From assembly GCA_022833215.1 (NCBI GenBank), contig JAIPUZ010000084.1, forward strand, positions 62,001 to 126,000: a stretch of 64,000 nucleotides of DNA. Direction: 5' to 3'. The translations under genes were made by a program, and so were the position numbers. Positions 2,903-33,226 of the stretch are shown one piece after another. The DNA is from Mesorhizobium sp. GTDB taxonomy: Bacteria > Pseudomonadota > Alphaproteobacteria > Rhizobiales > Rhizobiaceae. Position 1 is the stretch's first letter. Each line of letters begins with the position of its first letter. The notes below the pieces were generated by a model. It searched no databases, was not told the origin of the DNA, and was given only the letters and a program-made list of their open reading frames with translations.

Positions 2903-3105
2903 GAGCCCCTGTCCATCTGCTCCCGTTCTTCACCCGGAACCGTGTTGTCGCGGAAGAAGGTTGCGCCGCCCGTTCGGCATGTAATGCCCCCGCCGTCCCC
3001 TCCATGCGGCGCAGGCGGCATCCGGCGCGCAGATGCTCCTGTGGCGTGAGAACGCCTCGGACTTACCGATCATGTGGATGGGTGGTGCCGACAGGTGCCT
3101 TCTTC

Positions 3106-3134
3106 GCTGCAACATCGCATAGCGGTGTTGCAGC
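3106..3134 (-). terminator. Hairpin downstream of the mutase small-subunit gene
   Basis: GCTGCAACA (3106-3114) and TGTTGCAGC (3126-3134) form a perfect 9-bp stem with an 11-base loop, 27 bases beyond the stop of the minus-strand mutase gene. No T-run follows on either strand, so intrinsic termination is uncertain. It could instead be a 3' stability hairpin. The rest of 2903-3161 shows no gene. Confidence 0.4.
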
Positions 3135-3161
3135 AAGAGCCAAGACAACAGGGTTTCAGTC

Positions 3162-6199: not shown

Positions 6200-6218
6200 C
6201 GGCTTGCAGCATGATGCG

Positions 6219-6249
6219 AAAAAAGGCGGCGCTGGGCGCCGCCTTTTTC
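6219..6249. terminator. Bidirectional intrinsic terminator
   Basis: GGCGGCG (6225-6231) and CGCCGCC (6237-6243) form a perfect 7-bp stem with loop CTGGG. An A-run flanks it on the left and a T-run on the right, so it works on both strands. It separates the convergent HerA-like and L,D-transpeptidase genes. Confidence 0.92.
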
Positions 6250-6270
6250 GTTGAAGCCGTCAGCCTGACG

Positions 6271-7080
6271 TCAGAGCCAGGAGTTGGTGACGCGACCGAG
6301 AAGGGTGGAGCCCTCGGGCACACCCGCATCGACAGCGACGCCGCTCGGATCATGGCTGGCGATGCGCGCGCCGAGCCCGTTCGTGACGAGAATGGGCGAC
6401 TTGCCGGGAACGCGGCTGTGGAGGTCGATGATATCCTGGTTCATCAGGCGCACGCAGCCGGACGAGATCGACTTGCCGATCGAGTGCCACTCGGGCGAGC
6501 CGTGGATACGGTAAAGCGTATCCTCGTTGTTCTGGAATATGTAGAGCGCGCGCGCACCCAGCGGGTTCATCAACCCCGGAGGCATGCCGCCGTTGCGGGA
6601 GCTGTATTTCTCCAGCTCCGGCTGACGGGCGATCATCTCGTCCGGGGGGGTCCACTTCGGCCATTCGCGCTTGTACTGGACGACCGCGCGGCCCGCCCAC
6701 TCGAAACCGGCGCGGCCCAGACCGACACCATAGCGCATGGCCTGACCGTCTTCGCGGACGAGATAGAGGAAGTGCTGCGAGGTGTCGACGACAATGGTGC
6801 CGGGACGCTCGCCTGTCGGATCTGGCACGATCTGGCGCAGGAATTTCGGATCGATCTTGCGGTACGGGACCGCAGGAATCTCGTAGCCGCCGTCGAACAC
6901 CGGGCCATACATGATGTCGTAGCTGCCGAGTTCCGGCTGGGCTTGCGGCTCGGGAGGACCAAGGGGGACGGAGGGGGTTGTGGTGGTGCAGGCCGATACG
7001 GTGGCCGCTGCCGCGCCCATCGCCGCCATATTGAGGAAACGACGCCTTGTCAGCAGGACGGGAGGTGAATCTGTTGCCAT
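6271..7080 (-). CDS. L,D-transpeptidase (YkuD/ErfK family), exported
   Basis: 269-residue cell-envelope enzyme that forms 3-3 peptidoglycan crosslinks or attaches proteins to peptidoglycan. The N-terminus has TRRRFLNMAAMG followed by a hydrophobic stretch and VSAC (C31), so a Tat-like signal and possible lipid attachment are visible. The YkuD domain spans about residues 93-235: TIVVDTSQHFLYLV, then the catalytic motif with H193 (RIHGSPEWHSIGKSISSGC) and nucleophile C209, followed by VRLMNQDIIDL. All catalytic residues are present. It is a single gene, divergent from the aminotransferase gene and closed by the terminator shared with the HerA-like gene. Rhizobiales use L,D-crosslinks heavily for polar growth. 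Confidence 0.93.
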   Translation of the reverse strand: MATDSPPVLLTRRRFLNMAAMGAAAATVSACTTTTPSVPLGPPEPQAQPELGSYDIMYGPVFDGGYEIPAVPYRKIDPKFLRQIVPDPTGERPGTIVVDTSQHFLYLVREDGQAMRYGVGLGRAGFEWAGRAVVQYKREWPKWTPPDEMIARQPELEKYSSRNGGMPPGLMNPLGARALYIFQNNEDTLYRIHGSPEWHSIGKSISSGCVRLMNQDIIDLHSRVPGKSPILVTNGLGARIASHDPSGVAVDAGVPEGSTLLGRVTNSWL

Positions 7081-14150: not shown

Positions 14151-14570
14151 GTGCAGGCAAATCTCTCTCTTATCCCCGACGATCCCGTACATATGGCCAT
14201 GGATGCGGGAGCCGACGACCGTTCCACCCATGTGCTTCCCAAACGCAAGGATGAGATCGCGCTGGAGGTGTGCGAATGCCTGATCGACATTGCCTCCGCT
14301 CTGTTTGCACTCTCCTCCAGGGAATTGCGAAAGGCGGGACGAACATCCCAGCCAGTATCGCGTGTGCGCCAGATCGCCATGTATGTCGCCCATGTGATCC
14401 TGCGCCTGACCATGAGCGACGTGGGCCGTGGCTTCGGGCGTGACCGCACAACGGTGATACACGCCTGCCAGACCATCGAGGATTTGCGGGACGATCCGGA
14501 ATTCGACCGGGTCGTGCATATGTTCGAGCAGATCGCCTCCGCCGCATTCCGCAACCGCCTGGGGTTTTGA
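14151..14570 (+). CDS. DnaA C-terminal-domain (HTH) protein, not full DnaA
   Basis: 139 residues from a GTG at 14151 with a strong GGAGGA site 6 bases upstream. Residues 65-130 match the C-terminal DNA-binding domain of DnaA: the run SRVRQIAMYVAHVILRLTMSDVGRGFGRDRTTVIHAC contains the signature G-R-D-R-T-T-V-x-H-A (residues 96-105) that reads DnaA boxes. The AAA+ ATPase and domain I of true DnaA are missing. In Rhizobiales such proteins are annotated as helix-turn-helix or DnaA-like; their target is unsettled. A DUF6456 gene starts 3 bases after its stop, so the two form an operon. A TTGACA lies at 14066-14071. Confidence 0.85.
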   Translation: MQANLSLIPDDPVHMAMDAGADDRSTHVLPKRKDEIALEVCECLIDIASALFALSSRELRKAGRTSQPVSRVRQIAMYVAHVILRLTMSDVGRGFGRDRTTVIHACQTIEDLRDDPEFDRVVHMFEQIASAAFRNRLGF

Positions 14571-14573
14571 TCG

Positions 14574-15389
14574 ATGCCGGGGCCTTTTCGCGAATTGCCT
14601 GTTCGCCTCCTGACCTTTCTGGCCAAAGGACCGGGACGCATGGGGCAGGCCGCCCACAGCGGGAAACTGCTGATCGAGGCAGGCGACAGAGGTGCCGTTT
14701 CGGTCGAAAACGAGATGCTTCAATGGCTCGTTTCCGAAGGAACCGTGACGGTTTGCGGTGATGAGATTTCCCTGTCGCGGACGGGGTTTGAGGTCGCGCG
14801 CGATCTTGCCGCTGCCCGATCCTCCAAAAATGGGGGGCGTGAGATCGGTGCAATCTCTCCCGGCACCGGCACTGGCGGGGAGGCCCGGCCAATTCTGGTG
14901 AACCTGTCGGAATCGCCTCTGGCGCAACTGGCAAGATTGCGCACCAGGGCTGGAAAATCATTCCTTGCCGCGCGTGAGTTCGAGGCAGGGGAACGGCTGC
15001 GCGCAGACTACACGCGCGGCCAGATCATGCCGCGTCTCGGCGCCAACTGGATAGCCAGCGTTGCTTCCGGAAAGCGCTCCGGTGCGGGCGGCACGGCAGA
15101 ATTGACGGAGGCGGCCCTTGCCGCGCGCTTGCGGGTCGAAAAGGCAATCGCGGCTGTAGGCCCCGAGCTTTCGGGCGTGCTGATCGATGTGTGCTGTTTT
15201 CTGAAAGGCATGGAAACGGTCGAGATGGAACGGGCATGGCCCGTGAGGTCAGGCAAGGTCGTGCTCAAGACCGCGCTTTCCGCGTTGGCCCGCCACTATT
15301 GGCCGAATGCAGCTTCGGACGAGAACAAGCCGGCACGCATGCTGCATTGGGGTGTGCAGGATTACCGGCCGAGCATGCACGGGTCGTAG
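14574..15389 (+). CDS. DUF6456 domain protein
   Basis: 271-residue protein conserved in Rhizobiales. The N-terminal part (residues 1-85) looks like a winged-helix domain ending SLSRTGFEVARDLAAA. A Gly/Ser linker follows. The C-terminal DUF6456 region (about 110-260) includes ESPLAQLARLRTRAGKSFL, ADYTRGQIMPRLGANW and LIDVCCFLKGMETVEMERAW, ending in an HTH-like GKVVLKTALSALARHY. The pattern resembles a DNA-binding regulator, but no function is established. It is tightly linked to the DnaA-C-domain gene upstream and convergent with sufE. Confidence 0.8.
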   Translation: MPGPFRELPVRLLTFLAKGPGRMGQAAHSGKLLIEAGDRGAVSVENEMLQWLVSEGTVTVCGDEISLSRTGFEVARDLAAARSSKNGGREIGAISPGTGTGGEARPILVNLSESPLAQLARLRTRAGKSFLAAREFEAGERLRADYTRGQIMPRLGANWIASVASGKRSGAGGTAELTEAALAARLRVEKAIAAVGPELSGVLIDVCCFLKGMETVEMERAWPVRSGKVVLKTALSALARHYWPNAASDENKPARMLHWGVQDYRPSMHGS

Positions 15390-16235: not shown

Positions 16236-16521
16236 ATCCGTCTTCTTTCCAGAGTCCCTTGCTCCATCGATGCCACCCTTACCCGGATCTTACCAAGGGC
16301 CGATTTCCACCAAGACAGGAATTTTATTAAAATTTGAAACACTTCCTGTCCGCTCTCCTTTGGCCTTCGAGAGCTGAACGGAGGCTGAAGTCCGGGGCGG
16401 TGGTCAGCCTATCCATTTGATTCGTCGTTAAAAGGTCTGCTTGCAGCCGGTTGCGGTCATCGCCTTCAGATTGTGCTTTCGACTAACCCGGCGTTTACCA
16501 TGGGCTGAGTTGACGCCCGCG

Positions 16522-18453
16522 ATGAGCCGTTTTGCGGAAAAAACGACATCGAAAGGGGGCGCGCGTGTCCTGCTTTATCCATTCCTTAAAGGCTGGATGC
16601 GACTTTCAGGCTCAATCAGAAACGATCTGCGAGGCAGGTCTGTACGAGGCGTTGAGTTGAGTTCGATTGCGGCAAGATACGTTGGATTGCCTGACGCGAT
16701 TGCGACTGGCTGCGACCGTCTCGTGCATGCCCGCGTGAGCGAAAAAGACGCGCGCGCCCGGCAAGCCCGCTTCATCGGTGTCATGCTGGCCGTGCCGTTC
16801 CTTGCAGCCGGAAGCGCCGTCATGCTCGTGACCGCCAGCCTTGGCGCATCGGCGACGCTGGCAACCATTCTTGCCATCTTCGGCGTCTGCTGGCTGGCTG
16901 CCCTTCTGGTTTCGGCCACCGGTCGCGATGTGGAGGCCGGCGCGGCAGCTCTTGCCATCTCGGGCCTGGCTATCGGTGCTCTTGTGGCGTTTTCAGGTGG
17001 GCTTGCATCGCCAGTCGCGTTGCTTCTGGTCGCACCTGCCGTGGAAGCGTTCTGGGTCAGCCGCTCGCGGCGCTGGGCGCTGGCAGGAGCCGTGGCGGCG
17101 ATTGCCGGCGCTGTCATGCAGTTCCTGCCCGCAGGGCTGGCGTTGCCCGCCTATGTGCAGCCGGCGCCCTGGCATTGGCTTCTGCCGCTGGCCTGGGGCG
17201 CTACGCTCGTTCCCCGCTGGCCCCGGTTCCGGTATGGCGACACCGCAAAAACGGAAAGGTCGGTCGATCTCGATGTCGAGGGACTGACGAACGCTGTCAT
17301 GCTGCGCCTGAACCGGCAGGGCGAGGTGCTTGACGCAGGCGAACGCACGCAGGCTGTGCTGGGCCTTCCGGCTCATCTGCTGCTCGGCAACGCTCTCTTC
17401 GACCGTATCCATATCGCCGACCGCATCAGCTATCTCAATGCGCTTGCCGACATGCGCGACGGCGCGGTCTGCGCTCATGTGGAAATGCGCGTTCGGCTGC
17501 CGAAGGCGGCAGGCGCAACCGCGAGCAGCCACAAGCAATGCATCCTCGAACTGGCCAGAGGCGACGAGGAGGGCAATGCGTTCTTCGCCCTGCTGCGCGA
17601 CAATTCGGAGATGGCCGGGCTGCGGCAGGCGCTTTGCGAGGCTCAGGAGAGCGCCGCAAGCGCAGAGGTGACGAAGACCCGGTTCCTCGCTGCCGTAAGC
17701 CATGAGTTGCGCACGCCGCTCAATGCCATCATCGGCTTTTCCGACATGCTGCTGCATGAGATGTTCGGGCCGTTCAACGATCCTCGCCAGAAGGAATATG
17801 TCGCCCTGGTGCGCGAATCCGGCCAGCACCTGCTGGAGGTCGTGACGTCGATCCTCGACGTGTCTCGCATCGAGGCGGGTGCCTACCGCACCAATCCCGA
17901 GCCGTTCCGTTTCGTGGAAGCTGCCGAGATGTGCCGTTCCATGATGCAGTTGCAGGCTGAAACCAAAAAGATCAGGCTGGAACTGCGGGTGGCTGCCGAT
18001 ACGGGTGAAGTGAATGCCGACCGCCGCGCCATCCAGCAGATTCTGATCAACCTTGCTTCCAATGCCATCAAGTTCACGCCCGAAGGCGGCGAGGTGGCGA
18101 TCGGCGCGCAACGGGTGGGTTCGCGGCTGCATTTCTGGGTGAGCGATACGGGGATCGGCATTGCCGAAGACGATCTTGCGCAGATCGGCCAGCCATTCGT
18201 GCAGGTGCAGAACGATTACACCCGCGGTTTCGAGGGGGCAGGGCTCGGCCTGTCGCTGGTCAAGGGGCTGGTGAGCCTGCACGAAGGTACCATGTCCATC
18301 GACAGCATGCCCGGTGAAGGCACGACGGTTTCGGTGAGCATTCCGGTCGATGGACCGAAGGCAGACAAGGACAGGCTGGTGGTGCTGGCGGATGCGACGC
18401 CGGCAGGCAGGAAGAATGGGGAAGTGCATGGCCCGCTCCGCAAAACGGCCTAA
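16522..18453 (+). CDS. Membrane PAS sensor histidine kinase, DivJ/PleC-like class
   Basis: 643 residues from the ATG at 16522; TTG 16441 and ATG 16597 are alternatives. About five or six hydrophobic segments lie between residues 65 and 220. A PAS-like domain (about 235-330) follows, then the HisKA box AVSHELRTPLNAIIGFSDML with H394. HATPase motifs N (NLASNAIKFTPEGGEV), G1 (DTGIGIAEDD) and G2 (GAGLGLSLVKGL) are present. MFGPFNDPRQKEYVALVRES after the H-box is typical of the kinases that control DivK in alphaproteobacteria. A multi-spanning N-terminus plus one PAS domain fits DivJ rather than PleC (inference). The stop overlaps a downstream peptidoglycan-binding gene by 26 bases, implying coupled expression. 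Confidence 0.85.
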   Translation: MSRFAEKTTSKGGARVLLYPFLKGWMRLSGSIRNDLRGRSVRGVELSSIAARYVGLPDAIATGCDRLVHARVSEKDARARQARFIGVMLAVPFLAAGSAVMLVTASLGASATLATILAIFGVCWLAALLVSATGRDVEAGAAALAISGLAIGALVAFSGGLASPVALLLVAPAVEAFWVSRSRRWALAGAVAAIAGAVMQFLPAGLALPAYVQPAPWHWLLPLAWGATLVPRWPRFRYGDTAKTERSVDLDVEGLTNAVMLRLNRQGEVLDAGERTQAVLGLPAHLLLGNALFDRIHIADRISYLNALADMRDGAVCAHVEMRVRLPKAAGATASSHKQCILELARGDEEGNAFFALLRDNSEMAGLRQALCEAQESAASAEVTKTRFLAAVSHELRTPLNAIIGFSDMLLHEMFGPFNDPRQKEYVALVRESGQHLLEVVTSILDVSRIEAGAYRTNPEPFRFVEAAEMCRSMMQLQAETKKIRLELRVAADTGEVNADRRAIQQILINLASNAIKFTPEGGEVAIGAQRVGSRLHFWVSDTGIGIAEDDLAQIGQPFVQVQNDYTRGFEGAGLGLSLVKGLVSLHEGTMSIDSMPGEGTTVSVSIPVDGPKADKDRLVVLADATPAGRKNGEVHGPLRKTA

Positions 18454-22140: not shown

Positions 22141-24300
22141 TCACAGCGAAGACACCGTCTCCGGTTCTGCATCCGGCCGGAGCACAGGGGCCGACAGGAA
22201 CTGCCTGTTTATCTGGCGCAAAAGCTGAGTGCTGCGGCTGGACAGGACCGGTGGGCGCTCGGCTGCGGCGCGGTCGGCTTCCGCCTGTGCGGCCGCTTTT
22301 GCCGCTTCCTCGGCCTTGGCTGCAACGGTCGCATCGACAAAGGGGTTGGCAATGCCGGGGATCGGCTTCAGGTCAATGTTCTGGTGGGCGTAGGCCATCA
22401 GCCGCTGCCAGACCATGGCCGGCAGCGACCCGCCGGTCATGTTGCGGGTCGGGCTGTAGTCGTCATTTCCGATCCATACGGCCGCCGTGTAGTTGCCGGT
22501 GAAGCCGACATACCACGCATCCCGATAGGACTGGCTGGTGCCGGTCTTGCCGCCTGAGACGATGCCGGGCAGTGCGGCGCGGCGGGCGGTGCCGATAACC
22601 GGCACCTGAACCAGCATCGTGTTCATGTAGGAAACGGCCTGTTCCGAAAGGACACGGCGGGGCGGCGGGGCATCCTTGGCGAAATCGTAGATGACGTCCC
22701 CCGTGTGGGTGACGAGCTGGGTGACGCCATGGCGAGTGCCGACCATTCCGTCCTGTGGAAAGACGCTGTAGCCGGTGGCCTGATCCATGACGGTCATGCC
22801 GGAGGTGCCGAGCACCATGGTCTTGTGCGACTCCAGCGTTGATTCGACGCCCATGGCTTCGGCCAGTTCCTTGATCGGCTTGATGCCGAGATTGTCCTTG
22901 GCGAGGCGGACGGGAACGGTGTTGATCGATTTGACGAAGGCGGTGGTCAGCGTCATGCGGCCTGCCGAAGCGCCGTTGTAGTTGCCGGGATGCCAGTTGC
23001 CCCAGCTGACGGGTGCGCCCGAAACGATGGTGTCCGGCGTGAAGCCGTGCTCCACGGCAGCGGCATAGACATATGCCTTGAAGGAGGAGCCGGGCTGGCG
23101 CAGCGCCTTTGTGGCCCTGTTGAACTGGCTGGCGCCGTAGTCGCGTCCGCCCACGATGGCGCGCACCGCACCGTTGGTCTCGATGACCACGATTGCGCCC
23201 TGCGAGGCATTGTAGTCCTTGCCATGCTGGCGAAGGTGAAATTCCAGAGATTCCTCGGCTGCCTGCTGGATATTGGGGTCGAAGGCGGTGTGGGCGACAA
23301 GTGAATGCTGGCGCGATCTGGCGGCCAGCCTGCGCACCTCCTCGAAAGCCCAGTCGAGATAGTAGTCCGGACTCTTGCGGTCACCACGATCGACTACGTC
23401 GGCCGGATGCCGGCGCGCCTGCAACACCTGGCCCTCGGTCATGAACCCGCTGTCGACGAGGTTCGACAGCACGACATTGGCGCGCGCGCGCGCTGCCGGC
23501 AGGTTGACGTGCGGAGCGTATTTGCTCGGAGCCTTGAACAGGCCGGCCATCATGGCTGCCTCCGCAAGGGTGAGGTCGCGCACGCTCTTGCCGAAATAGA
23601 AATCGGCCGCGGCTTCGATGCCGAACGTCCCGCCGCCCATATAGGAGCGGTCGAGGTAAAGTTGCAGTATCTCCTTCTTGGACAGGTTCGCTTCCAGCCA
23701 CAGCGCGAGGAAGGCTTCCTTGACCTTGCGTTCCAGCGTGCGCTCGTTGGACAGGAACAGGTTCTTGGCGAGCTGCTGGGTAAGGCTGGAACCGCCCTGA
23801 ACCACGGAATTGGCGCGGACATTCTCGGTCATGGCGCGCATGAGGCCGAGAATATCGATGCCGTAGTGGTCGAAGAAGCGGCGATCCTCCGTTGCAAGAA
23901 CCGCCTTGATGACATGATCGGGCATCTGGTCCACCGGCACCGAATCGCGCTGGATGAGGCCGCGCTGACCGATCTCGTTGCCGTAGCGGTCGAGGAAGGT
24001 GACAGCGAAATCGTCCTGTGCGCGCCAGTCCCCGGCCGTTTCCTCGAAGGCCGGCATGGCCAGCGCCAGCATGACCACCGCACCGCCTGCACCCAGGGTG
24101 AAGCCTTCGCTCAACAGCTCAATGGCACCGCGCCGCCAGCCTTTGACACGAAAACGGCGGAAGAAGATGGTCGCCGCTTCCCAGAACTCACGGAATTTGA
24201 AGCCAGCCTCATAGAGAGTCGAATCGAGCCAGGCGTCGATTGCCAGCAGGAAAGCGGCGATACGACCACGTTTCTTCTTCGGCTCCAGGGAACTGACCAT
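22141..24300 (-). CDS. Class A penicillin-binding protein (PBP1A family)
   Basis: 719-residue bifunctional peptidoglycan synthase in the inner membrane. A membrane segment lies at about residues 65-85 (TLGAGGAVVMLALAMPAF). The GT51 glycosyltransferase domain (about 95-275) has catalytic E138 in LATEDRRFFDHYG, GGSSLTQQLAKN and KKEILQLYLD. The transpeptidase domain (about 330-630) has S405-S-F-K408 (SxxK), S458-I-N460 (SxN) and K585-T-G (KTG). An Ala/Glu-rich tail follows. All active-site motifs are intact. In polar-growing Rhizobiales, PBP1A is the major elongation synthase; which paralogue this is cannot be told here. It is divergent from the GTA remnant. Confidence 0.92.
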   Translation of the reverse strand: MVSSLEPKKKRGRIAAFLLAIDAWLDSTLYEAGFKFREFWEAATIFFRRFRVKGWRRGAIELLSEGFTLGAGGAVVMLALAMPAFEETAGDWRAQDDFAVTFLDRYGNEIGQRGLIQRDSVPVDQMPDHVIKAVLATEDRRFFDHYGIDILGLMRAMTENVRANSVVQGGSSLTQQLAKNLFLSNERTLERKVKEAFLALWLEANLSKKEILQLYLDRSYMGGGTFGIEAAADFYFGKSVRDLTLAEAAMMAGLFKAPSKYAPHVNLPAARARANVVLSNLVDSGFMTEGQVLQARRHPADVVDRGDRKSPDYYLDWAFEEVRRLAARSRQHSLVAHTAFDPNIQQAAEESLEFHLRQHGKDYNASQGAIVVIETNGAVRAIVGGRDYGASQFNRATKALRQPGSSFKAYVYAAAVEHGFTPDTIVSGAPVSWGNWHPGNYNGASAGRMTLTTAFVKSINTVPVRLAKDNLGIKPIKELAEAMGVESTLESHKTMVLGTSGMTVMDQATGYSVFPQDGMVGTRHGVTQLVTHTGDVIYDFAKDAPPPRRVLSEQAVSYMNTMLVQVPVIGTARRAALPGIVSGGKTGTSQSYRDAWYVGFTGNYTAAVWIGNDDYSPTRNMTGGSLPAMVWQRLMAYAHQNIDLKPIPGIANPFVDATVAAKAEEAAKAAAQAEADRAAAERPPVLSSRSTQLLRQINRQFLSAPVLRPDAEPETVSSL

Positions 24301-24591: not shown

Positions 24592-25083
24592 ATGCCGGAA
24601 GCAGCGGCAGGGCAGGGTGCCCGTTTGCATGCGTTGCGCATACTGGCCGAGGGTGGGCACGCCACGATCGAGCGGCTGGCGATGGCCAGCGGCAGGTCGG
24701 TTGCGGCCTTGCAGCGGCTGGCGCGAAACGAAGGCTGGAAGCTGGTCGAGGCCGGCCCGCTGGATGTCTCGGCGCGCATCCGCAAGGCGGCCGGCATGGT
24801 CCTCGGCAAGGTGGAGGAACTGGGAGAGGCTGCCGAAAACGGCGGCAGCATCGACAAGGGCGCCATCGACGGACTGATCGCGATGATCCGCGGTCTGGAG
24901 AAGATCGGCGAGATCATGCGGCCGGAAGAAGCCGCCAGGGAAAACCAGATCAGGGATAACGAGGACCTTGCCGACACGCTGCAACGGATCGAGGAACGTA
25001 TCGTCGAGCTTGCGGGCGAGCTCGCAACTCGAATGGCTGAAGAACAACTTGCAGCCGCAGGATGCACAGAAGGCGGCGTGTGA
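24592..25083 (+). CDS. GTA first gene: small-terminase-like HTH protein
   Basis: 163 residues from the ATG at 24592 (GAGGACC site); the frame opens earlier but upstream sequence is not protein-like. An N-terminal HTH (LRILAEGGHATIERLAMASG, RSVAALQRLARNEGWKLVEA) is followed by long helices ending in RIEERIVELAGELATRMAEE, a probable coiled coil. In RcGTA clusters the first gene is a small terminase that recognises DNA and recruits the large subunit. The gene is uninterrupted, and its 3' end overlaps the terminase frame. Without an intact large subunit it cannot package DNA, unless retained for another job. Confidence 0.75.
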   Translation: MPEAAAGQGARLHALRILAEGGHATIERLAMASGRSVAALQRLARNEGWKLVEAGPLDVSARIRKAAGMVLGKVEELGEAAENGGSIDKGAIDGLIAMIRGLEKIGEIMRPEEAARENQIRDNEDLADTLQRIEERIVELAGELATRMAEEQLAAAGCTEGGV

Positions 25084-25663
25084 ATGGCTGATGCGGGGGC
25101 GCGCCAACCAGCTTCAGATCGGGTGCGACCCTGTCGGCTGGCTGGTGATGGGCGGACGTGGCTCGGGCAAGACCCGGCTCGGGGCCGAATGGGTGATCGC
25201 ACTGGCGCGGGGATTGCCGCCTTTCGCCCGCCCGGGCAACCGGCATGGACTGATCGCTCTGGTGGGCGAGACGCTGGGCGATGTGCGCGAGGTGATGATC
25301 GATGGCGCTTCGGGAATAGCCAGTATCGCGCGCGACGACCGGCCCCGCTACGAGGCGTCGCGGCGACGGCTGTTGTGGCCGAGCGGGGCGGTGGCGCAGG
25401 CATTTTCCTCCGAAGATCCCGAAAGTCTGCGCGGACCGCAGTTTGCTGCTGCATGGTGCGATGAGCTGGCCAAATGGAAGAATGCCGAGGCGACCTACGA
25501 CATGCTTCAGTTCGGCCTTCGGCTGGGAGAGCGACCGCGCCAGCTCATCACCACCACGCCGCGTCCGACGCCATTGATGAAGCGGCTGCTGGCCGATCCG
25601 TCCGTCATGCTGACGAAGCTCGGTACTCATGAGATACGGGCTGGTTCTCATTCGGAACGCTGA
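25010..25663 (+). pseudogene. GTA large terminase, truncated after the ATPase half
   Basis: The frame encodes the N-terminal ATPase domain of the GTA terminase: WLVMGGRGSGKTRLGAEWV with Walker A GGRGSGKT, GLIALVGETLGDVREVMIDG, RRLLWPSGAVAQAFSSEDPE, and a Walker B-like FAAAWCDELAKWKNAE. TTTPRPTPLMKRLLADPSVM follows. After LTK (about 25618) similarity stops; a short unrelated tail reaches a stop at 25663. The C-terminal nuclease domain is absent, leaving roughly half of a normal protein (about 430 residues). The start is uncertain: TTG 25010 or TTG 24968, both overlapping the first gene. The break coincides with the start of DUF2163 sequence in another frame. Confidence 0.85.
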
Positions 25664-25947
25664 CCTGGACAGACGGGTTGCGGCAGGGGCGAACGGAGAG
25701 GATCGTGGATCATCGCAGCGACGGTGCATTTTCTGTACTGACGCTGCAAGCCGGCTCCGGACCGCAGATCGTGCCGGGAGACGGTTTCACCATCGTGGCC
25801 GGATGCGACCATTCCTTCGCGACCTGCAAGGCGAAATTCGCAAATGCGCTGAATTTCCGTGGCTTTCCGCATCTGCCGGGCAATGACGTGGCCTATGCCT
25901 ACGTTACCGATGGCGGCGTCTTCGATGGCGGACCGGTGGTTCCATGA
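25633..25947 (+). pseudogene. C-terminal fragment of GTA DUF2163 protein (g13 homologue)
   Basis: The frame starting just after an in-frame TGA at 25630 reads DTGWFSFGTLTWTDGLRQGR, then RTERIVDHRSDG, GPQIVPGDGFTIVAGCDHSF, ATCKAKFANALNFRGFPHLP and GNDVAYAYVTDGG. This is the last third of DUF2163/BR0599-type GTA and phage tail proteins; the CDHSFATCKAKFANALNFRG block is the family signature. The N-terminal two thirds are gone, together with its start. The stop overlaps the ATG of the NlpC/P60 gene (ATGA), the arrangement expected in an intact cluster, so the right flank is undisturbed. Confidence 0.88.
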
Positions 25948-26375
25948 CCGATGTGAACGATGTCTCAGCGGAAGCGCTGTCGTGGATCGGCACGCCCTAC
26001 CTGCATCAGGCGAGCGCGAAAGGCATCGGCTGCGACTGCCTTGGGCTGGTGCGGGGCGTGTGGCGCGCGCTTTATCGGCGGGACCTGCCGGCACCCCCGG
26101 ATTACGCTGCCGACTGGAGTCGTGGCGATGCAGGGGAAGCGTTGCTTGCCGGAGCGTACCGTCATTTCGAGCCCTGCGGGGCGAATGCCTGTCTGACCGG
26201 ACGGTTGCTCATCTTCCGCTGGAAGCCGCATCTGCCGGCGCGCCACGCTGGCATCGCGGTCACGCAGGATCACTTCGTGCATGCCTATGATGGCGGCGGC
26301 GGAGTGGTGCGTTCCTTCCTTGTTCCGCAATGGCGCCGGCGTATCGCCGGCGTTTTCGCTTTTCCCGACAACTGA
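25944..26375 (+). CDS. GTA NlpC/P60-family peptidoglycan peptidase (g14 homologue)
   Basis: 143-residue cell-wall peptidase. The catalytic Cys is C32 in IGCDCLGLVRGVWR and the His is about H105 in RHAGIAV, followed by HFVHAYDGGGGVVR. Family members cut peptidoglycan stem peptides; in GTA particles the g14 protein sits at the tail and helps DNA cross the wall. Length and both catalytic residues are normal. The ATG overlaps the stop of the DUF2163 fragment, and the tail-tip gene begins 17 bases after its stop. The gene looks functional although the capsid genes are gone. Confidence 0.9.
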   Translation: MTDVNDVSAEALSWIGTPYLHQASAKGIGCDCLGLVRGVWRALYRRDLPAPPDYAADWSRGDAGEALLAGAYRHFEPCGANACLTGRLLIFRWKPHLPARHAGIAVTQDHFVHAYDGGGGVVRSFLVPQWRRRIAGVFAFPDN

Positions 26376-26392
26376 CCACGCCGGAGCGTTTC

Positions 26393-29300
26393 ATGGCGAC
26401 CATTCTGCTACAGGCAGCCGGAGCCTATCTTGGCGGCTTCCTCGGAACATTCGGCGGTGCGATCGGGACCGCCGTCGGCGCGATGGCGGGCTATGCGATC
26501 GACCGCGCGCTGATCAACGGCACGCAGCGCATCGAAGGGCCGAGACTGGCGAATGCCAGACCGTTCAGCGCAGAGGAAGGCGCGCCCATACCACGTCTGT
26601 ACGGCACGGCGCGACTGGGCGGCACGCTGATATGGGCGACGCGCTTCGAGGAGCGTCGCTCTACCCGGCGACAGGGCAAGACGGGGCCGAAGGTTACGGA
26701 ATACTCCTACTTCGCCAACGCGGCCTTCCTGCTGTGCGAGGGCGAGATTGCAGGCATCAGGCGCATCTGGGCGGATGGCCGTGAGATAGATCGCGAGACG
26801 CTCGAACTGCGTGTCTACCCTGGCAGCGAGGACCAGCAGCCGGACCCTCTGATCGAGGCAAGGCAAGGATCCGGCAATGCTCCCGCCTACAGGGGGGCGG
26901 CCTATGTGGTCATCGAGCGGATGGATCTGGGTCCTTTCGGCAACCGCATCCCGCAACTGCAATTCGAGGTGATCCGGCCGGTCGGCAGGGTGCATCGGGG
27001 TGTGAGAGCGGTGGCGCTGATCCCAGGCGCAACGGAATACGGGCTTTCCACCACACCCGTGACAAGCCGCAAACGGCCCGGCGACCAGACCTATGTGAAC
27101 CGCAGCGTGGTGTTCGGCGCTACAGATATTCAGGCTTCGCTGGATGAATTGCAGCAGACCTGCCCCAACCTGAAACATGTTGCTCTGGTGGTGGCCTGGT
27201 TCGGCGACGATCTGAGGGCCGGCCATTGCCGGATCAGGCCCATGACGGCCACCGGTCTGGATGGTGGCTTTTCGGCGGAGTGGCGGGTGTCGGGGCTTTC
27301 GCGGCAGACCGCCCCGGTCGTTTCGAAGCATGGCGGCGGGCCAGCCTATGGCGGAACGCCCTCCGACCGGAGCGTCATGGAGGCTATCGCCGAAATAAAG
27401 GCGCGGGGCCTCAAGGTTACGCTCAACCCCTTCATCATGATGGATGTTCCTGCCGGCAACGAGCTTCCGGATCCATATGGCGGAGCGAGCCAGGCCGCTT
27501 ATCCGTGGCGCGGCCGCATCACGTGCCATCCCGCCCCGTTGCAACCTGAAACCGCCGACTGCTCGATCCTGTCGAGAATGCAGGTGGCGGCGTTCTGCGG
27601 TTCCGCCCAGAAGAACCAGTTTTCCTATTCCGGCAATACGATTTCCTTCAGTGGCGGGGTTGACTGGGGCTACAGGCGCTTCATCCTCCACTATGCGCAT
27701 CTTGCGGCTAGGTCAGGCGGGGTCGATGCATTCCTGCTGGGCAGCGAATTGCGCGGCCTCACGACATTGCGTGATGAGCTTGACGCCTTCCCGTTCGTGG
27801 AACAGCTTGGCGCGCTCGCAGCCGATATACGCACGCTGGTCGGTTCGTCGACGCGGATCAGCTACGGGGCGGACTGGAGCGAATATTTCGGCCATCACCC
27901 GATGGACGGTTCGGGCGACGTCTTCTTCCATCTTGACGCGTTGTGGGCCCATCCGGCTGTCGATGCCGTGGGAATAGATAACTACATGCCGCTGGCGGAC
28001 TGGCGGGATGCCGATTATGCAGGTGGGAACCCCGACGGCTTCGACAGTCCATACGATTTGCGTGGCCTGCGCGCCGGAATCACAGGCGGCGAAGGCTTCG
28101 ACTGGTATTACCCGGATACCGGTGCAAGAGAGGCGCGCGCGAGAGAGCCGATCGCCGACGGCGCGCATGGCAAGCCATGGGTGTTTCGCTACAAGGACAT
28201 CCTGTCCTGGTGGTCCAGCCTGCATTACGACCGCGTCGGCGGTGTTGAAAAGCCGATGCCGACCGCCTGGGTGCCCGGAGCCAAGCCAATCTGGTTTACG
28301 GAACTGGGCTGCCCCGCTGTCGACAAGGGGCCAAACCAGCCCAATGCGTTCCCGGATCCGAAGTCTGCTGAAAGCTCCACGCCCTGGTTCTCGAGCAAGG
28401 GACGCTCCGATCTGGCGCAGAGCCGGTTTCTGGAGGCTCACATGTCTCACTGGGATCCGTCGTTCGGGGACTTTGACGAAACGGGAAATCCGACATCGCC
28501 CGTCTATGGCGGGCGAATGGTCGACCATGAAAGAAGCTATCTTTGGGCCTGGGATGCACGTCCGTTCCCCGCTTTTCCGCAAAGGACCGACCTTTGGTCG
28601 GATGGCGAGCACTGGAGCCGGGGTCATTGGCTGAACGGGCGATTGAGCAGTCCCGACGTCGCCGCCCTTGTAGCCGCGATCCTGCATGACCACGGCTATC
28701 GTGACGCGATTGTCGGCGAGGTCGACGGTTGCGTGAACGGCTATGTCATCGCCGACCCGACGACAGCGCGTGCAGCGCTTGAACCGCTGGCCGACCTGTT
28801 CGATCTGAGTGCACATGAAGCCGGCGGAAAGCTGACCATCGAGCGGGCCGGTGCCGGGAAAAGCCCGGCGCTTTCCATCGATGAGCTTGTCGTCGACGAT
28901 CGCACGGCTACGCTGGAGGCGGTCCGCAATCCCGACCATCAATTGCCTGCCGAAGCATTGCTCAGCTTTGTCGATCCTGCGAACGACTATCAGGCCGCTA
29001 CGGTCAGGCGCACGCGAGGCGGTGTGTCCGGAAACAGGCAGCAGACGATCTATTTTCCCGGTGTATTGGAAGCGGGACAGGCGGGAGCGCTGCTCGATGA
29101 CTGGCTCAGGCGCGTCTGGTACCAGCGTGAAACCGTGTCTTTTGCAGTGCCGCAGCCCAATGCCGATGTCGTACCGGGTGCCATCGTGCGACTGCCATCG
29201 TCCGGTTCCGCGTCGGACTATCTCGTAACCGGTATTGAGGATGGCATTACCCGCAGGGTGGAAGCGCGCCAGATTTTCGCCACCGTGCCTTCCCCCTGGC

Positions 29301-30286
29301 GGGAAGCCGTGTTGCCGGTTGCGCAGCAGGTATCCATTGTCGCGGGCCAGCCCCACGTGCTGTTTCTCGATCTGCCCGCAGGGGTTGGCGGAACCGGCGG
29401 GACGGAACAGTTTCGCGTTGCCGTCTGGCAAAAGCCATGGCGCAGCCAGACAGTATTCGCCTCGCCCGAAGGTGAAGGCTTCGCCTACCGGCAACTTGTC
29501 CCAAGGCCCGCTTCACTCGGGCGCCTGCTCGAACCCCTGCCACCGGGATTTGAAGGCCGGCTGGTGCACGGCAACTCTGTCATGGTCGAATTGTTCGACG
29601 CCGATGTGCAAAGCGCAAGTCTGCTTCAGCTGCTCAATGGAGCCAATCTGGCGGCTGTCAGGTCGGCTTCCGGTATCTGGGAGGTCCTGCAATTCAGGCG
29701 GGCCGAGCAGGTGGCATCGCAAACCTGGCGCCTGTCCTCGCTGCTGCGGGGCCAGTTGGGAACCGGCGACGCCATGGCAATCGGCGCGCCGGCCGATTCC
29801 GATTTCGTGATTCTCGATGAGGCAGTGGTTCCGGCAGGCCTTCAGGCGGGCGAAACCGGCCTTGAGCTCAACTGGCAGGTCGGCCCCACTGCGATGGATA
29901 TCTCCGATCTCCACTTCATCACGGAGCGGCATGTCGGTGGATTGCGATCCCAGCTTCCGCTTTCCCCTGTGCATCTGAAAGCGAGGCGCGCGGGAGGCGA
30001 TGTACGGCTGTCATGGATTCGCCGTGGCCGCCTGGATGCGGACAGTTGGGAGTCCCCCGATATTCCGTTGGGTGAGGAGCGTGAGGAATACCGGATCGAA
30101 ATTGCCGATCTGACCGGAAATCTGGTGCGTACCGAAACGGTAGCCGAACAAGGCTGGCTGTATCCGCAGGCTCTCATCGCCTCGGACTTCGGAACGCTGC
30201 CTGCAATCATCGAGCTGACGGTGCGCCAGCTGGGCGGGCCCACCGGTTGGGGGCTGCCCGGAACATCGCGGCTGACCCTCATCTGA
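26393..30286 (+). CDS. GTA tail-tip / host-specificity megaprotein (g15 homologue)
   Basis: 1297 residues from the ATG at 26393, uninterrupted. The N-terminus (ILLQAAGAYLGGFLGTFGGA, IGTAVGAMAGYAIDRALING) is the hydrophobic start of the g15 family. A GTA TIM-barrel-like domain occupies about residues 430-730 (FILHYAHLAARSGGVDAFLL, DNYMPLADWRDADYAGG, KPIWFTELGCPAVDKGPNQP). A phage tail-3 domain follows (about 780-1000; IERAGAGKSPALSIDEL, VRRTRGGVSGNRQQTIYFPG), and then a C-terminal receptor-facing region. In RcGTA it forms the tail tip. Full length with no frameshift implies recent or ongoing selection, or a young deletion. Confidence 0.9.
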   Translation: MATILLQAAGAYLGGFLGTFGGAIGTAVGAMAGYAIDRALINGTQRIEGPRLANARPFSAEEGAPIPRLYGTARLGGTLIWATRFEERRSTRRQGKTGPKVTEYSYFANAAFLLCEGEIAGIRRIWADGREIDRETLELRVYPGSEDQQPDPLIEARQGSGNAPAYRGAAYVVIERMDLGPFGNRIPQLQFEVIRPVGRVHRGVRAVALIPGATEYGLSTTPVTSRKRPGDQTYVNRSVVFGATDIQASLDELQQTCPNLKHVALVVAWFGDDLRAGHCRIRPMTATGLDGGFSAEWRVSGLSRQTAPVVSKHGGGPAYGGTPSDRSVMEAIAEIKARGLKVTLNPFIMMDVPAGNELPDPYGGASQAAYPWRGRITCHPAPLQPETADCSILSRMQVAAFCGSAQKNQFSYSGNTISFSGGVDWGYRRFILHYAHLAARSGGVDAFLLGSELRGLTTLRDELDAFPFVEQLGALAADIRTLVGSSTRISYGADWSEYFGHHPMDGSGDVFFHLDALWAHPAVDAVGIDNYMPLADWRDADYAGGNPDGFDSPYDLRGLRAGITGGEGFDWYYPDTGAREARAREPIADGAHGKPWVFRYKDILSWWSSLHYDRVGGVEKPMPTAWVPGAKPIWFTELGCPAVDKGPNQPNAFPDPKSAESSTPWFSSKGRSDLAQSRFLEAHMSHWDPSFGDFDETGNPTSPVYGGRMVDHERSYLWAWDARPFPAFPQRTDLWSDGEHWSRGHWLNGRLSSPDVAALVAAILHDHGYRDAIVGEVDGCVNGYVIADPTTARAALEPLADLFDLSAHEAGGKLTIERAGAGKSPALSIDELVVDDRTATLEAVRNPDHQLPAEALLSFVDPANDYQAATVRRTRGGVSGNRQQTIYFPGVLEAGQAGALLDDWLRRVWYQRETVSFAVPQPNADVVPGAIVRLPSSGSASDYLVTGIEDGITRRVEARQIFATVPSPWREAVLPVAQQVSIVAGQPHVLFLDLPAGVGGTGGTEQFRVAVWQKPWRSQTVFASPEGEGFAYRQLVPRPASLGRLLEPLPPGFEGRLVHGNSVMVELFDADVQSASLLQLLNGANLAAVRSASGIWEVLQFRRAEQVASQTWRLSSLLRGQLGTGDAMAIGAPADSDFVILDEAVVPAGLQAGETGLELNWQVGPTAMDISDLHFITERHVGGLRSQLPLSPVHLKARRAGGDVRLSWIRRGRLDADSWESPDIPLGEEREEYRIEIADLTGNLVRTETVAEQGWLYPQALIASDFGTLPAIIELTVRQLGGPTGWGLPGTSRLTLI

Positions 30287-30311
30287 ACCAGATACATGAA
30301 AGGAACACGCA

Positions 30312-30518
30312 ATGACGGCAACAAAACCCTGGTATTTTTCCAGAACCATCTGGGCTTCGATCATAACGGTCGCGACCGGGGCCGCTGGCATGACGGGCCT
30401 GCCCATCGAGGCGGCTGACGGTGCGCTGATCACCGATACGCTGTTGCAGGGTGTCAGTGCCATATCTGGCCTGATTGCCATTCTTGGCAGGTTGTCTGCG
30501 AAGGACAGGATAGGCTAG
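30312..30518 (+). CDS. Small holin-like membrane protein at the GTA end
   Basis: 68-residue protein MTATKPWYFSRTIWASIITV with two predicted membrane segments (about residues 12-30 and 43-60, LLQGVSAISGLIAILGRLSA) and a short basic tail, KDRIG. The KPWYFSRTIWA start is found in small membrane proteins beside phage lysis and tail genes, some annotated as holins. It follows the tail-tip gene by 25 bases with an AAAGGA site. A holin-type role is inferred from size, topology and position only. Confidence 0.6.
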   Translation: MTATKPWYFSRTIWASIITVATGAAGMTGLPIEAADGALITDTLLQGVSAISGLIAILGRLSAKDRIG

Positions 30519-30639
30519 GATTGCCGGGTGATGCCTCCGGCGAGGCTTGGTTCTTGTGTGCAAATGCCTGTTGGGGGGATATGCGCGATGCATTCAGCAT
30601 TCATTTCACGTTCAGCCATGGCAGGTTAGAACGGCGAAC

Positions 30640-30891
30640 ATGGAAAAGCTTCGAAACACGATCCGGTCGACAATGCTGGCGTTTTGCGCCTGTGCGCTGC
30701 TTGCGCCGCCCGCTGTCGCTGCCGATTGCTACTCGATCGGGCAACAGGTCGCCGCGCAGAACGGTGGCACGCTGGCCAAGGCCTCCGAAGCCAACAGGGG
30801 GGGGCAGGCGGTTTGCGTCATCGTCGTTCTGGTTCCCGGTAGGGATGGCGAGCGGCCGCGCCGAACCGAGATCGTGGTGCCGAAGAGCTGA
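30640..30891 (+). CDS. feuN: Small secreted FeuN-like inhibitor of the FeuQ kinase
   Basis: 83 residues from the ATG at 30640; longer frames from 30547 are unlikely. A signal peptide (about residues 1-28, TMLAFCACALLAPPAVAADC) leads to a mature domain of about 55 residues with C30 and C59, a probable disulfide. The tail is rich in Arg/Pro (GRDGERPRRTEIVVPKS). In Sinorhizobium, FeuN is a small periplasmic protein encoded upstream of feuPQ that restrains FeuQ and is essential because of it. Assignment rests on position, size, export signal and the downstream pair, not on sequence alignment. Confidence 0.7.
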   Translation: MEKLRNTIRSTMLAFCACALLAPPAVAADCYSIGQQVAAQNGGTLAKASEANRGGQAVCVIVVLVPGRDGERPRRTEIVVPKS

Positions 30892-30978
30892 TTCGCGTCT
30901 CGTTTCAATGGCATCGGAATCGCTCTATATCTGACAGTAACCGGGCCGACTGGCCGCTACACCGGCAGGATCGTTTTC

Positions 30979-31644
30979 ATGCGTGTGCTCGTCGTCGAGG
31001 ATGACAAGGATCTCAACAGGCAGATTTCCGATGCCCTGGTCGATGCCGGATATGTGGTCGACAAGGCCTATGACGGGGAGGAAGGTCATTTCCTCGGCGA
31101 TACCGAACCTTACGACGCCGTGGTTCTGGACATCGGTCTGCCGCAGATGGACGGCATCAGTGTGGTCGAACGCTGGCGGCGCGACGGACGCAAGATGCCC
31201 GTGCTTATGCTGACCGCCCGCGATCGCTGGAGCGACAAGGTGGCCGGCATAGATGCCGGCGCCGATGATTATGTCGCCAAGCCGTTCCACATTGAGGAGG
31301 TCTTGGCACGGCTGCGCGCGCTCATCCGTCGTGCGGCGGGGCACGCCTCGTCGGAACTCGTTTGCGGCCCGCTTCGCCTCGATACGAAATCTTCCAAGGC
31401 GGATGTCGAGGGGGTTCCGCTCAAGCTTACGTCGCTTGAGTTCCGGTTGCTTGCCTATCTCATGCATCACATGGGCGAGGTCGTCTCGCGCACCGAACTT
31501 GTGGAGCATCTCTACGATCAGGATTTCGACCGCGATTCCAACACGATCGAGGTGTTCGTGGGACGTCTGCGCAAGAAGCTCGGCGTCGATCTGATCGAAA
31601 CCGTGCGCGGCATGGGTTATCGCATTCGTGGGCCGGAGGCTTGA
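30979..31644 (+). CDS. feuP: FeuP-like OmpR-family response regulator
   Basis: 221 residues. The receiver domain (1-120) has acidic D8-D9, phosphoacceptor D51 (VVLDIGLPQMDG), and K101 (DDYVAKPFH). The winged-helix output domain (about 125-220) has VPLKLTSLEFRLLAYLMHH, VVSRTELVEHLYDQDFDRDS and a C-terminal VRGMGYRIRGPEA. Sequence and context (small secreted gene before, kinase overlapping after) fit FeuP, which in Sinorhizobium activates ndvA and cyclic glucan export for osmoadaptation. Other OmpR-type regulators are similar, so the symbol depends on synteny. Confidence 0.78.
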   Translation: MRVLVVEDDKDLNRQISDALVDAGYVVDKAYDGEEGHFLGDTEPYDAVVLDIGLPQMDGISVVERWRRDGRKMPVLMLTARDRWSDKVAGIDAGADDYVAKPFHIEEVLARLRALIRRAAGHASSELVCGPLRLDTKSSKADVEGVPLKLTSLEFRLLAYLMHHMGEVVSRTELVEHLYDQDFDRDSNTIEVFVGRLRKKLGVDLIETVRGMGYRIRGPEA

Positions 31645-33086
31645 ACTCGCAGAAGCTGTCCGCACTTCCTGCATCCCGACCCGCCAGAAGACCTGGCAGG
31701 ATCGGCAGGGTGCGGCTCTGGCCCCGTTCGCTGACCTTTCGCGTCATCGCCTTCTCGACCATGTGGGCCATATTGGCGCAGGTCGTCGTCTTCACCCTCA
31801 TCACCACCCTTTACAGGCAGGCGAGCGAACGCGGATTCGACAGTCTGCTTTCGGCGCATCTGTTCAACCTCATCGGCTCGGTCGGCGTTTCCGAGGACGG
31901 CAGGCTTACGGGTGCGCCCGATCTCGGCGATCTGCGCTTTTCCGAACCGCGATCCGGCTGGTACTGGTCGGTGGAGCCTGCTTCTGCGGGAGTGACGGGG
32001 GGATTGCGCTCTTCCTCCATGACAGGAGCGATTCCGTCACCGAGCATCACCGCGGTGCCCTTCAACACCGAATTCCAGCGCAGCTACGTTGCCGGCGGCC
32101 TTGCCGGGGAAGAGCTTGCAGTCTTTGAAAGCGAATTCGTGCTCGATACCGGAAACCAGATCGCCCGCTTCCGCGTGATGGGCAACGAGAGCGAGCTGGA
32201 AGAGGAAATCGCGGCATTCCAGCGTAGCCTGCTCATTTATCTCTCGCTGTTCGGCTTCGGCATGATCGCCATCAACGCCATCGCCATTCTGTACGGACTC
32301 CAGCCGTTGCGGCGTGTGCGCGACGCGCTCGCCATGGTGCGCGAAGGAACGGCCCAGCGGCTGGATGGCCGTTTTCCCGCCGAAATCGAGCCGCTTGCGA
32401 ACGAAACCAACGCGCTCATTGAAAACAACCGCCGCATTGTCGAGCGCTCGCGCACGCAGGTTGGAAATCTTGCACATTCGCTCAAGACGCCGCTTGCCAT
32501 CCTGCTCAACGAAGGACGCGCGCTGGGCGGAGCGAAGGGAAAACTGATCGCCGAGCAGGCGGCTTCCATGCAGCAGCAGGTCGAACATTATCTTCAACGC
32601 GCGCGCGTGGCAGCACAGCGCGACAGCGTGGTTTATCGCACGCCCGTCAAACCGCTGGTCGAGCGGCTGGCGAGGGTGATCGGCAAGCTCAATCCGAACA
32701 CAGACCTGTCGGTTGATCTGCCGGAGGACGACATCGTATTCGCGGGCGAGCGCGAGGATATTGAGGAAATGCTCGGCAACCTGCTCGAGAACGCGATGAA
32801 GTGGGCTCGCAGCAAAGTGTCCATATCTGTAGCGCCTCTGCCAGGAGCCGAGGGTGAGCCGGACAGCTTCGAGATATGGATAGAGGACGATGGCCCCGGT
32901 ATTCCCGAGGACAAGGCGCGCGATGCCTTGAAACGTGGGCGGCGGCTGGACGAAAGCAAGCCGGGGACGGGCCTTGGGCTGGCAATAGTCACCGATCTGG
33001 TCAATGAATATGGGGGAAAGCTGCGTCTGGAGCGAGGCGGGCTTGGCGGCCTGAAGGCGATTGTCCAGTTGCGGAGGATCGAATGA
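31641..33086 (+). CDS. feuQ: FeuQ-like membrane sensor histidine kinase
   Basis: 481 residues from a TTG at 31641 that overlaps the feuP stop (TTGA), so translation is coupled. Two membrane segments (about 31-55 and 196-219) flank a periplasmic domain of about 140 residues, with a HAMP-type linker after the second. The H-box is unusual: GNLAHSLKTPLAILLNEGRAL with H279 (HSLKTP in place of HELRTP), as in PhoQ-like kinases. The ATPase N, G1 and G2 boxes are NLLENAMKWARSKVSISV, DDGPGIPEDKARD and GTGLGLAIVTDLVNEYGGKL. The periplasmic part is where FeuN would act. Confidence 0.78.
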   Translation: MNSQKLSALPASRPARRPGRIGRVRLWPRSLTFRVIAFSTMWAILAQVVVFTLITTLYRQASERGFDSLLSAHLFNLIGSVGVSEDGRLTGAPDLGDLRFSEPRSGWYWSVEPASAGVTGGLRSSSMTGAIPSPSITAVPFNTEFQRSYVAGGLAGEELAVFESEFVLDTGNQIARFRVMGNESELEEEIAAFQRSLLIYLSLFGFGMIAINAIAILYGLQPLRRVRDALAMVREGTAQRLDGRFPAEIEPLANETNALIENNRRIVERSRTQVGNLAHSLKTPLAILLNEGRALGGAKGKLIAEQAASMQQQVEHYLQRARVAAQRDSVVYRTPVKPLVERLARVIGKLNPNTDLSVDLPEDDIVFAGEREDIEEMLGNLLENAMKWARSKVSISVAPLPGAEGEPDSFEIWIEDDGPGIPEDKARDALKRGRRLDESKPGTGLGLAIVTDLVNEYGGKLRLERGGLGGLKAIVQLRRIE

Positions 33087-33226
33087 CAGGCGCGGGGCAA
33101 ACGACCTGAATTTGGCCAAACTGAACATGTTAGCGGCGGCTATATGCGAGAATTTCGGCGAGACGGCTTTTTGTGTGGGCGCCGGATTTCATTGTGGGTT
33201 CGATGCTCTGGCGTGCAGGTGATGAA

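Follow-up and report, generated by a model that had tools for sequence, protein, structure and literature searches.

The stretch of DNA analysed in this work, hereafter called the window, spans 64,000 nucleotides of a draft Mesorhizobium sp. genome of 4.55 Mb in 131 contigs (positions 62001-126000 of contig C84, genome G000) and contains a locus related to RcGTA, the gene transfer agent (GTA) of Rhodobacter capsulatus. Open reading frames (ORFs) and family scans reveal the following gene order: PBP1A on the reverse strand and then, all on the forward strand, g1, the N-terminal part of the terminase, the C-terminal part of gp13, gp14, gp15, an ORF of 68 amino acids (aa), a feuN-like gene, feuP and feuQ. 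The window was also compared, using TBLASTN, to 16 queries from the GTA of Aquamicrobium defluvii, consisting of 15 whole proteins and a partial g1 of 119 aa. Matches were obtained for g1, the terminase N-terminal part, the gp13 C-terminal part, gp14 and gp15 only. Judged from this gene content, the segment at 24592-30286 is the remnant of an RcGTA-type cluster and not a cluster.

Three genes of the remnant are whole. The first, g1 (24592-25083), occupies the position of the small terminase as an open frame and displays 97% identity to the available 119-aa part of its A. defluvii counterpart. The NlpC/P60 cell-wall peptidase gp14 (25944-26375) reaches 164 bits with TIGR02219, against a cut-off of 81.9, and is 94% identical to that of A. 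defluvii. The megatron baseplate protein gp15 (26330-30286, 1318 aa) scores 1674.6 bits with the NCBIfam model NF048004 (GTA_megatron), against a cut-off of 800, with 97% identity. The other two genes are fragments. The terminase large subunit (TerL; 24962-25663) is reduced to about 224 N-terminal codons, followed by about 8 foreign codons and a stop (Terminase_6N, expectation value (E) 1.7e-27; 98% identity to aa 2-228 of the 450 aa of A. defluvii TerL). The baseplate hub gp13 (25636-25947) is reduced to its last 104 codons, without its own start region; these codons cover positions 171-265 of the 266 of TIGR02218, reach 106.5 bits against a cut-off of 80.5 for this phage/GTA baseplate hub family and are 93% identical to aa 193-296 of the A. 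defluvii protein. As in RcGTA, gp15, gp14, gp13, g1 and the N-terminal part of the terminase are found in the expected order; unlike RcGTA, the window is devoid of all head genes, the connectors, the tube, the tape measure and the distal tail protein. The original prediction had placed the end genes of a GTA cluster here in correct order and orientation, which the ORFs and family scores bear out, and had described the capsid, portal, connector, tube and tape-measure genes as missing, in agreement with the TBLASTN results; of the genes that remain, the terminase and gp13 are incomplete. With three whole genes and two fragments, the window would not be counted under the rule given in a Genome Biol Evol 2019 article (PMC6821227), by which clusters are counted only with at least six GTA genes close together.

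The closest relative among the best 80 of 510 loci is A. defluvii DSM 11603 (locus L046), whose DNA is about 96% identical to that of the window. The proteins of L046 are 100% identical to those of genome G070 (contig G070:C5); the 100% matches of the A. defluvii queries in G070 thus represent the same genome and are no separate evidence, and the completeness of this cluster rests on its open frames and on its relatives. Open, full-length frames extend from the terminase to gp15 at the same site and with the same flanks (as seen in G070), and in the next relative, G085, all 16 query proteins are matched at the site, the g1 query being partial. Alignment to this sister locus, the check proposed with the original prediction, yields two blocks: window 24724-25641 corresponds to L046 1-918 with 96.4% identity, and window 25632-33097 to L046 9303-16768 with 95.8% identity. 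Between them lies a single clean gap, L046 912-9305, of exactly 8,394 bp absent from the window. Base-by-base comparison to L046 locates the junction, a feature without strand, at 25632-25641. The window agrees with the left side up to and including 25634 and with the right side from 25632 onwards, and the 3 exact shared bases (AGA, 25632-25634) are part of a 10-base imperfect repeat (8/10). The removed segment encodes the C-terminal half of the terminase, the portal, the protease, the major capsid protein, the head-tail connectors, the tail terminator, the tube, the tape measure, the distal tail protein and codons 1-192 of gp13, the baseplate hub. The ends had been predicted to be both collinear and in frame. 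They are collinear, but the terminase frame meets a stop at 25661-25663 past the junction and gp13 is read in another frame, and an in-frame terminase-gp13 fusion was thereby ruled out.

The complete sister cluster at the same site, the exact gap and the failure to find the missing segment in close copy anywhere else in the window assembly together point to one deletion that followed the divergence from A. defluvii, and not to an in-frame fusion. The predicted single excision, as opposed to gradual decay, is therefore upheld by the alignment. We consider it very probable that this RcGTA-type locus was broken by the one 8,394-bp deletion and can no longer make particles. Illegitimate recombination at the short shared sequence (microhomology) would have removed the DNA, and the deletion of head genes, connectors, tube and tape measure would have abolished particle production. 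The window strain would no longer produce GTA particles and would match the 'recently emerged cheater' proposed in the literature.

The age of the deletion was approached through the substitutions accumulated in the surviving genes. The ratio of amino-acid-changing to silent substitution rates (omega) against A. defluvii is 0.116 for gp15, 0.209 for gp14 and 0.096 for the terminase fragment, and 0.033 and 0.066 for PBP1A and feuQ in the flanks; the value of 0.81 for the gp13 fragment derives from just 3 silent and 7 amino-acid changes. Changes were assigned to the two branches by polarisation with G085. For gp15, 48 silent and 22 amino-acid changes fall on the window branch versus 48 and 15 on the A. 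defluvii branch (Fisher p 0.34), and for the gp13 fragment, gp14 and gp15 combined the counts are 51 and 31 versus 54 and 22 (p 0.31). No internal stops were found in the surviving genes and no relaxation of these genes was detectable on the window branch. Because they show no decay yet, the loss is read as recent, which is the simplest interpretation, the branch counts being equally compatible with a retained function. A takeover of gp14 and gp15 for a different function, for instance as a cell-wall enzyme or tail-like device kept by selection, would account for both genes being whole and for the low pairwise omega of gp15. The same signal is nevertheless expected from a recent deletion, the branch counts are not detectably unlike those of the full A. 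defluvii cluster, and no second genome carries a remnant that would show long-term retention. Such a takeover is unlikely, and exaptation of gp14-gp15 in the window was dropped, as the evidence goes no further than recent loss.

A recent single deletion remains the preferred reading, and a number of points weigh against it. Amino-acid changes exceed silent ones on the window branch in gp14 (6 versus 3) and in the gp13 fragment (3 versus 0), counts that are too small for a test on their own. A pattern of 30 bases across the junction gave 0 matches in viral contigs, and only one genome carries the junction. The loss of particles is deduced from gene content. Finally, the junction might, with low probability, reflect an assembly error. 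An assembler that skipped 8.4 kb of an intact cluster would be conceivable in a draft of this kind, with its contamination estimate of 4.43. The junction is however located inside a 135.8-kb contig, the two ends have only the 10-base imperfect repeat in common and no close copy of the missing segment is present in the assembly, whose completeness is scored at 100%, all of which makes such an artefact very unlikely.

The original prediction would also have been overturned by a cluster split between distant parts of the genome. The best match to the deleted DNA in the window assembly is 69% over about 0.7 kb of the capsid region, on contig C100 (which carries a capsid homologue of 48%), and the other seven matches are short (66-96%) and fall on C3, C81 and C45. 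Two further gp15 homologues, on C3 and C81 (43-44% identity), belong to related prophage-like loci (L033-L034 and L035-L036) whose shared listed ORFs are 74-95% identical to each other; in all of C3 and about half of C81, the genes common to these loci and the GTA are the distal tail, hub, peptidase and megatron genes only (homologues of 41-53% identity), with an additional weak tape-measure match on C81. Phage_portal matches are present on C45 and C113, as well as a g8-family match of 34% on C45, and the A. defluvii portal has no match in the window genome at E <= 1e-30. It is extremely unlikely that these loci supply the missing functions, since two mutually similar prophage-like loci sharing a mere tail-tip module with the GTA, and scattered phage genes of 24-53% identity, do not amount to a split of the GTA cluster, and a split cluster was rejected on the absence of a close copy, of a close portal and of shared genes beyond the tail-tip module in the stretches of C3 and C81 covered.

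The fate of the cluster in the genus was surveyed in 146 genomes. Genomes with a gp15 match of at least 57% identity were considered GTA-bearing (12/146) and the other 134, in which a close gp15 is absent, GTA-less. Loss by a single event, as originally proposed, thus holds for the window strain but does not extend to most of the genus. With strict cut-offs, PBP1A was detected in 144 and feuQ in 145 of the 146 genomes; wherever a single contig carries the two genes (132/132 genomes) they are divergent neighbours, 1.9-27 kb apart. All 16 queries are matched at the site in six GTA-bearing genomes (G006, G070, G085, G111, G112 and G149); the cluster of G086 extends over two contigs, and the fragmentation of G023 does not allow a judgement. 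The portal of G114 (L168) was matched in two pieces with a part missing between them, through a frameshift or an assembly error. Internal deletions are present in three of the 12: the window, G069 and G165. In G069 (L163, 7750-8020) the protease is joined at about aa 50 to the capsid protein at about aa 348, out of frame, with 1,654 bp missing relative to G149 and 5 shared bases. In G165 (L171, between feuQ and PBP1A) the terminase is joined in frame at about aa 171 to gp15 at about aa 649, giving an 863-residue open frame that combines the N-terminal ATPase part of the terminase with the C-terminal half of gp15; a second gp15 (46%) accompanied by tail-tip genes, probably of prophage origin, also exists in this genome. 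Weaker GTA-like matches elsewhere in the genus are probably prophage genes: terminases of 49-51% away from the GTA site in G005, G020, G132, G143 and G145, a portal of 31% in G154 and partial gp15 of up to 43% in other genomes. Outside the genus, internal gaps were observed in G315, G450 and G455, and perhaps in G199, G401 and G463, as neighbour genes that are missing without a mapped junction.

A candidate GTA activator is encoded 9 kb from the broken cluster, in two halves. The first is a gafY-like protein of 139 aa with a DnaA-type helix-turn-helix (14151-14570, forward strand; Pfam Bac_DnaA_C, E 1.7e-15) and the second a gafZ/GafA-C-like DUF6456 protein of 271 aa (14574-15389, forward strand; Pfam DUF6456, E 2.8e-46), followed by sufE. 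Both frames are open, with omega values of 0.146 and 0.091, the latter for genes with an 18-base length difference. At a cut-off of E <= 1e-8, DUF6456 is matched in 12 of the 146 genomes (G000, G006, G023, G069, G070, G085, G086, G111, G112, G114, G149 and G165), exactly those defined above as GTA-bearing; the pair would be a putative activator of the GTA promoter. In the four GTA-less genomes that were read (G036, G003, G120 and G154), no gafYZ match was found at sufE, where sufE and its neighbours are present. The arrangement is that of the split gafA of Hyphomicrobiales, described in PMC9638019 as a DnaA-like and a DUF6456 gene beside sufE, and the gafYZ of Caulobacter (PMC11150451) served as the comparison system for a split activator. 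Unlike in these systems, the window pair resides in a genome whose cluster would have lost the ability to form particles.

Both G069 and G165 keep the activator as well. This suggests an order of loss in the genus, in which an internal deletion occurs with the activator still present, as in the window where the pair stays open beside the broken cluster, and cluster and activator are lost later, as would have happened in the relatives. The proposed order is drawn from three broken clusters. A control gene can survive the initial breakage of a cluster, and one tail gene often persists after the rest have gone: the tail terminator g8, which would have been left behind alone in most relatives without a cluster.

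This orphan g8 was recognised at the GTA-less sites, of which 40 were complete and examined, a 41st stretch (G010) being too short to judge. It is present in 38/40 with 43-59% identity to A. defluvii g8 and in the same orientation, as exemplified by L189 (G036, 2963-3367) and L198 (G120, 5956-6363). The other 15 query proteins gave no match at E <= 1e-3 in any of the 40 sites, and no tail tube was found in this way beside the orphan. Over the whole genus, 142/146 genomes have a strong g8 match without a stop (E <= 3.2e-29), namely 10 of the 12 GTA-bearing and 132 of the 134 others; it is missing as a strong match in the window genome, G165, G005 and G084, the window genome and G005 having just weak matches elsewhere. 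All 38 orphans that were extracted have an uninterrupted frame, of 135-138 aa. Compared in pairs, they give a median omega of 0.23 (467 pairs with silent divergence (dS) between 0.1 and 1), and GTA-borne g8 gives 0.39 (49 pairs), the pairs being not independent in either case. The substitution pattern indicates that orphan g8 is kept under purifying selection. All three orphans tested matched PF11367. The best solved match of A. defluvii g8 is the RcGTA tail terminator Rcc01690 (E 2.9e-7). The structural model of one orphan (predicted local distance difference test, pLDDT, 82.8) likewise has the RcGTA tail terminator, 6tba_4A, as its best match (E 9.2e-7, template modelling (TM) score 0.73); another orphan, by sequence alone, gave a weak match to this protein (E 0.23).

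The number of times that g8 was spared was estimated from trees. In a tree of PBP1A, FeuP and FeuQ, the 40 GTA-less genomes that were sampled form a core clade of 36, supported at 0.996 in a second tree, and, apart from it, a group of G005, G084, G095 and G110 that is joined to GTA-bearing G165 with support 100. In the g8 tree, G095 and G110 have orphans that cluster with the GTA-borne g8 of G069 and G149 (support 100), away from the core orphans, and the 36 core orphans come together with a support of only 52. A genome of another genus, G233 (L301), displays the order PBP1A-g8-feuN-feuP-feuQ with no other GTA query match, and is placed outside Mesorhizobium with GTA-bearing L055 (0.969) in the second tree. 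The two separate placements of orphans together with G233 suggest that g8 was spared at least twice, and probably three times. An acquisition of the orphans from phages in place of inheritance from a GTA would fit the low support of the core group and the clustering of phage g8 homologues with Rhizobiales GTA g8, which is reported in an Appl Environ Microbiol 2024 article (PMC11409702). It is distinctly unlikely in view of the location of the orphans, of which all 128 that could be positioned (out of 132) lie at the GTA site, 1.17-1.87 kb upstream of feuQ and on the same strand, and in view of the fully supported grouping of the G095 and G110 orphans with GTA-borne genes.

In a survey of the family, g8 was matched in at least 280 of 394 genomes at E <= 1e-12 among the matches listed. 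The 70 g8 loci examined were not a random sample, being made up of the best 30 (26 outside the genus and 4 from Mesorhizobium) and of 40 picked from the strong matches listed for their spread over genera; of the 66 loci from other genera, 65 include one or more neighbouring GTA genes and one, G233, is an orphan. We lean towards the view that dying GTAs in Mesorhizobium and its kin repeatedly spare g8 as a stand-alone cellular gene beside feuNPQ, which may act as a decoy or cap against the tails of related phages or GTAs or may have another new role; interference with phage tails is our leading guess. The necessity of the gene is called into question by the four genomes of the genus without g8 and by the smaller clade, where it is kept in 2/4.

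GTAs persist for very long periods although the producing cells die, and theory predicts the emergence of non-producers ('cheaters'). Non-producers that are clearly recent and have a mapped mutation are useful, and the near-identical pair formed by A. defluvii, with its complete cluster, and the deleted window strain constitutes a natural knockout for the costs and benefits of GTA production. Pseudogenisation and complete loss of GTAs in several lineages of Alphaproteobacteria have been reported, with the proposal that broken clusters may be recent cheaters (J Bacteriol 2024, PMC10883770); the accessible part of that article contains no junction mapped against an intact and nearly identical sister, no activator retention and no orphan g8, in which it differs from the present results. 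An independent loss of GTA genes in each of the four major nodulating lineages of Rhizobiales has been reported as possible (mSystems 2020, PMC7363004); our genus survey fits these losses for large-genome Mesorhizobium, and a surviving single gene is not mentioned in the accessible part. A single g8 would go uncounted under the rule of PMC6821227, because six or more GTA genes are needed. A literature search, with most subscription journals outside its coverage, listed no paper on the orphan g8 or on the 8,394-bp deletion, and no relevant paper for DUF3168 together with gene transfer agent. The orphan g8 is the novel part of this work, suggesting that a virus-derived tail protein gained its own job in well-studied soil bacteria, and the deletion adds one well-resolved example to a kind already known.

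The remnant is bordered on the left by PBP1A (22141-24300, reverse strand), with Transgly and Transpeptidase domains. On the right, the ORF at 30312-30518 (forward strand, 68 aa), the end of the range originally assigned to the locus, is not feuN. It is situated behind gp15 in the GTA-bearing loci that have this stretch. Among the 40 complete GTA-less sites, 39 gave no match to it and one (G084) a weak partial match; it is possibly an unnamed GTA-linked gene. The small secreted protein encoded next (30547-30891, forward strand), identified as an ORF and FeuN-like, has a homologue between g8 and feuP in all five GTA-less sites that were read. The feuP response regulator and feuQ histidine kinase genes (30979-33086, forward strand) were identified by family scans and by the genus searches. 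Another histidine kinase of the window, at 16441-18453, has 15 silent and 19 amino-acid changes on the window branch versus 28 and 10 on the A. defluvii branch, which suggests faster protein change on the former.

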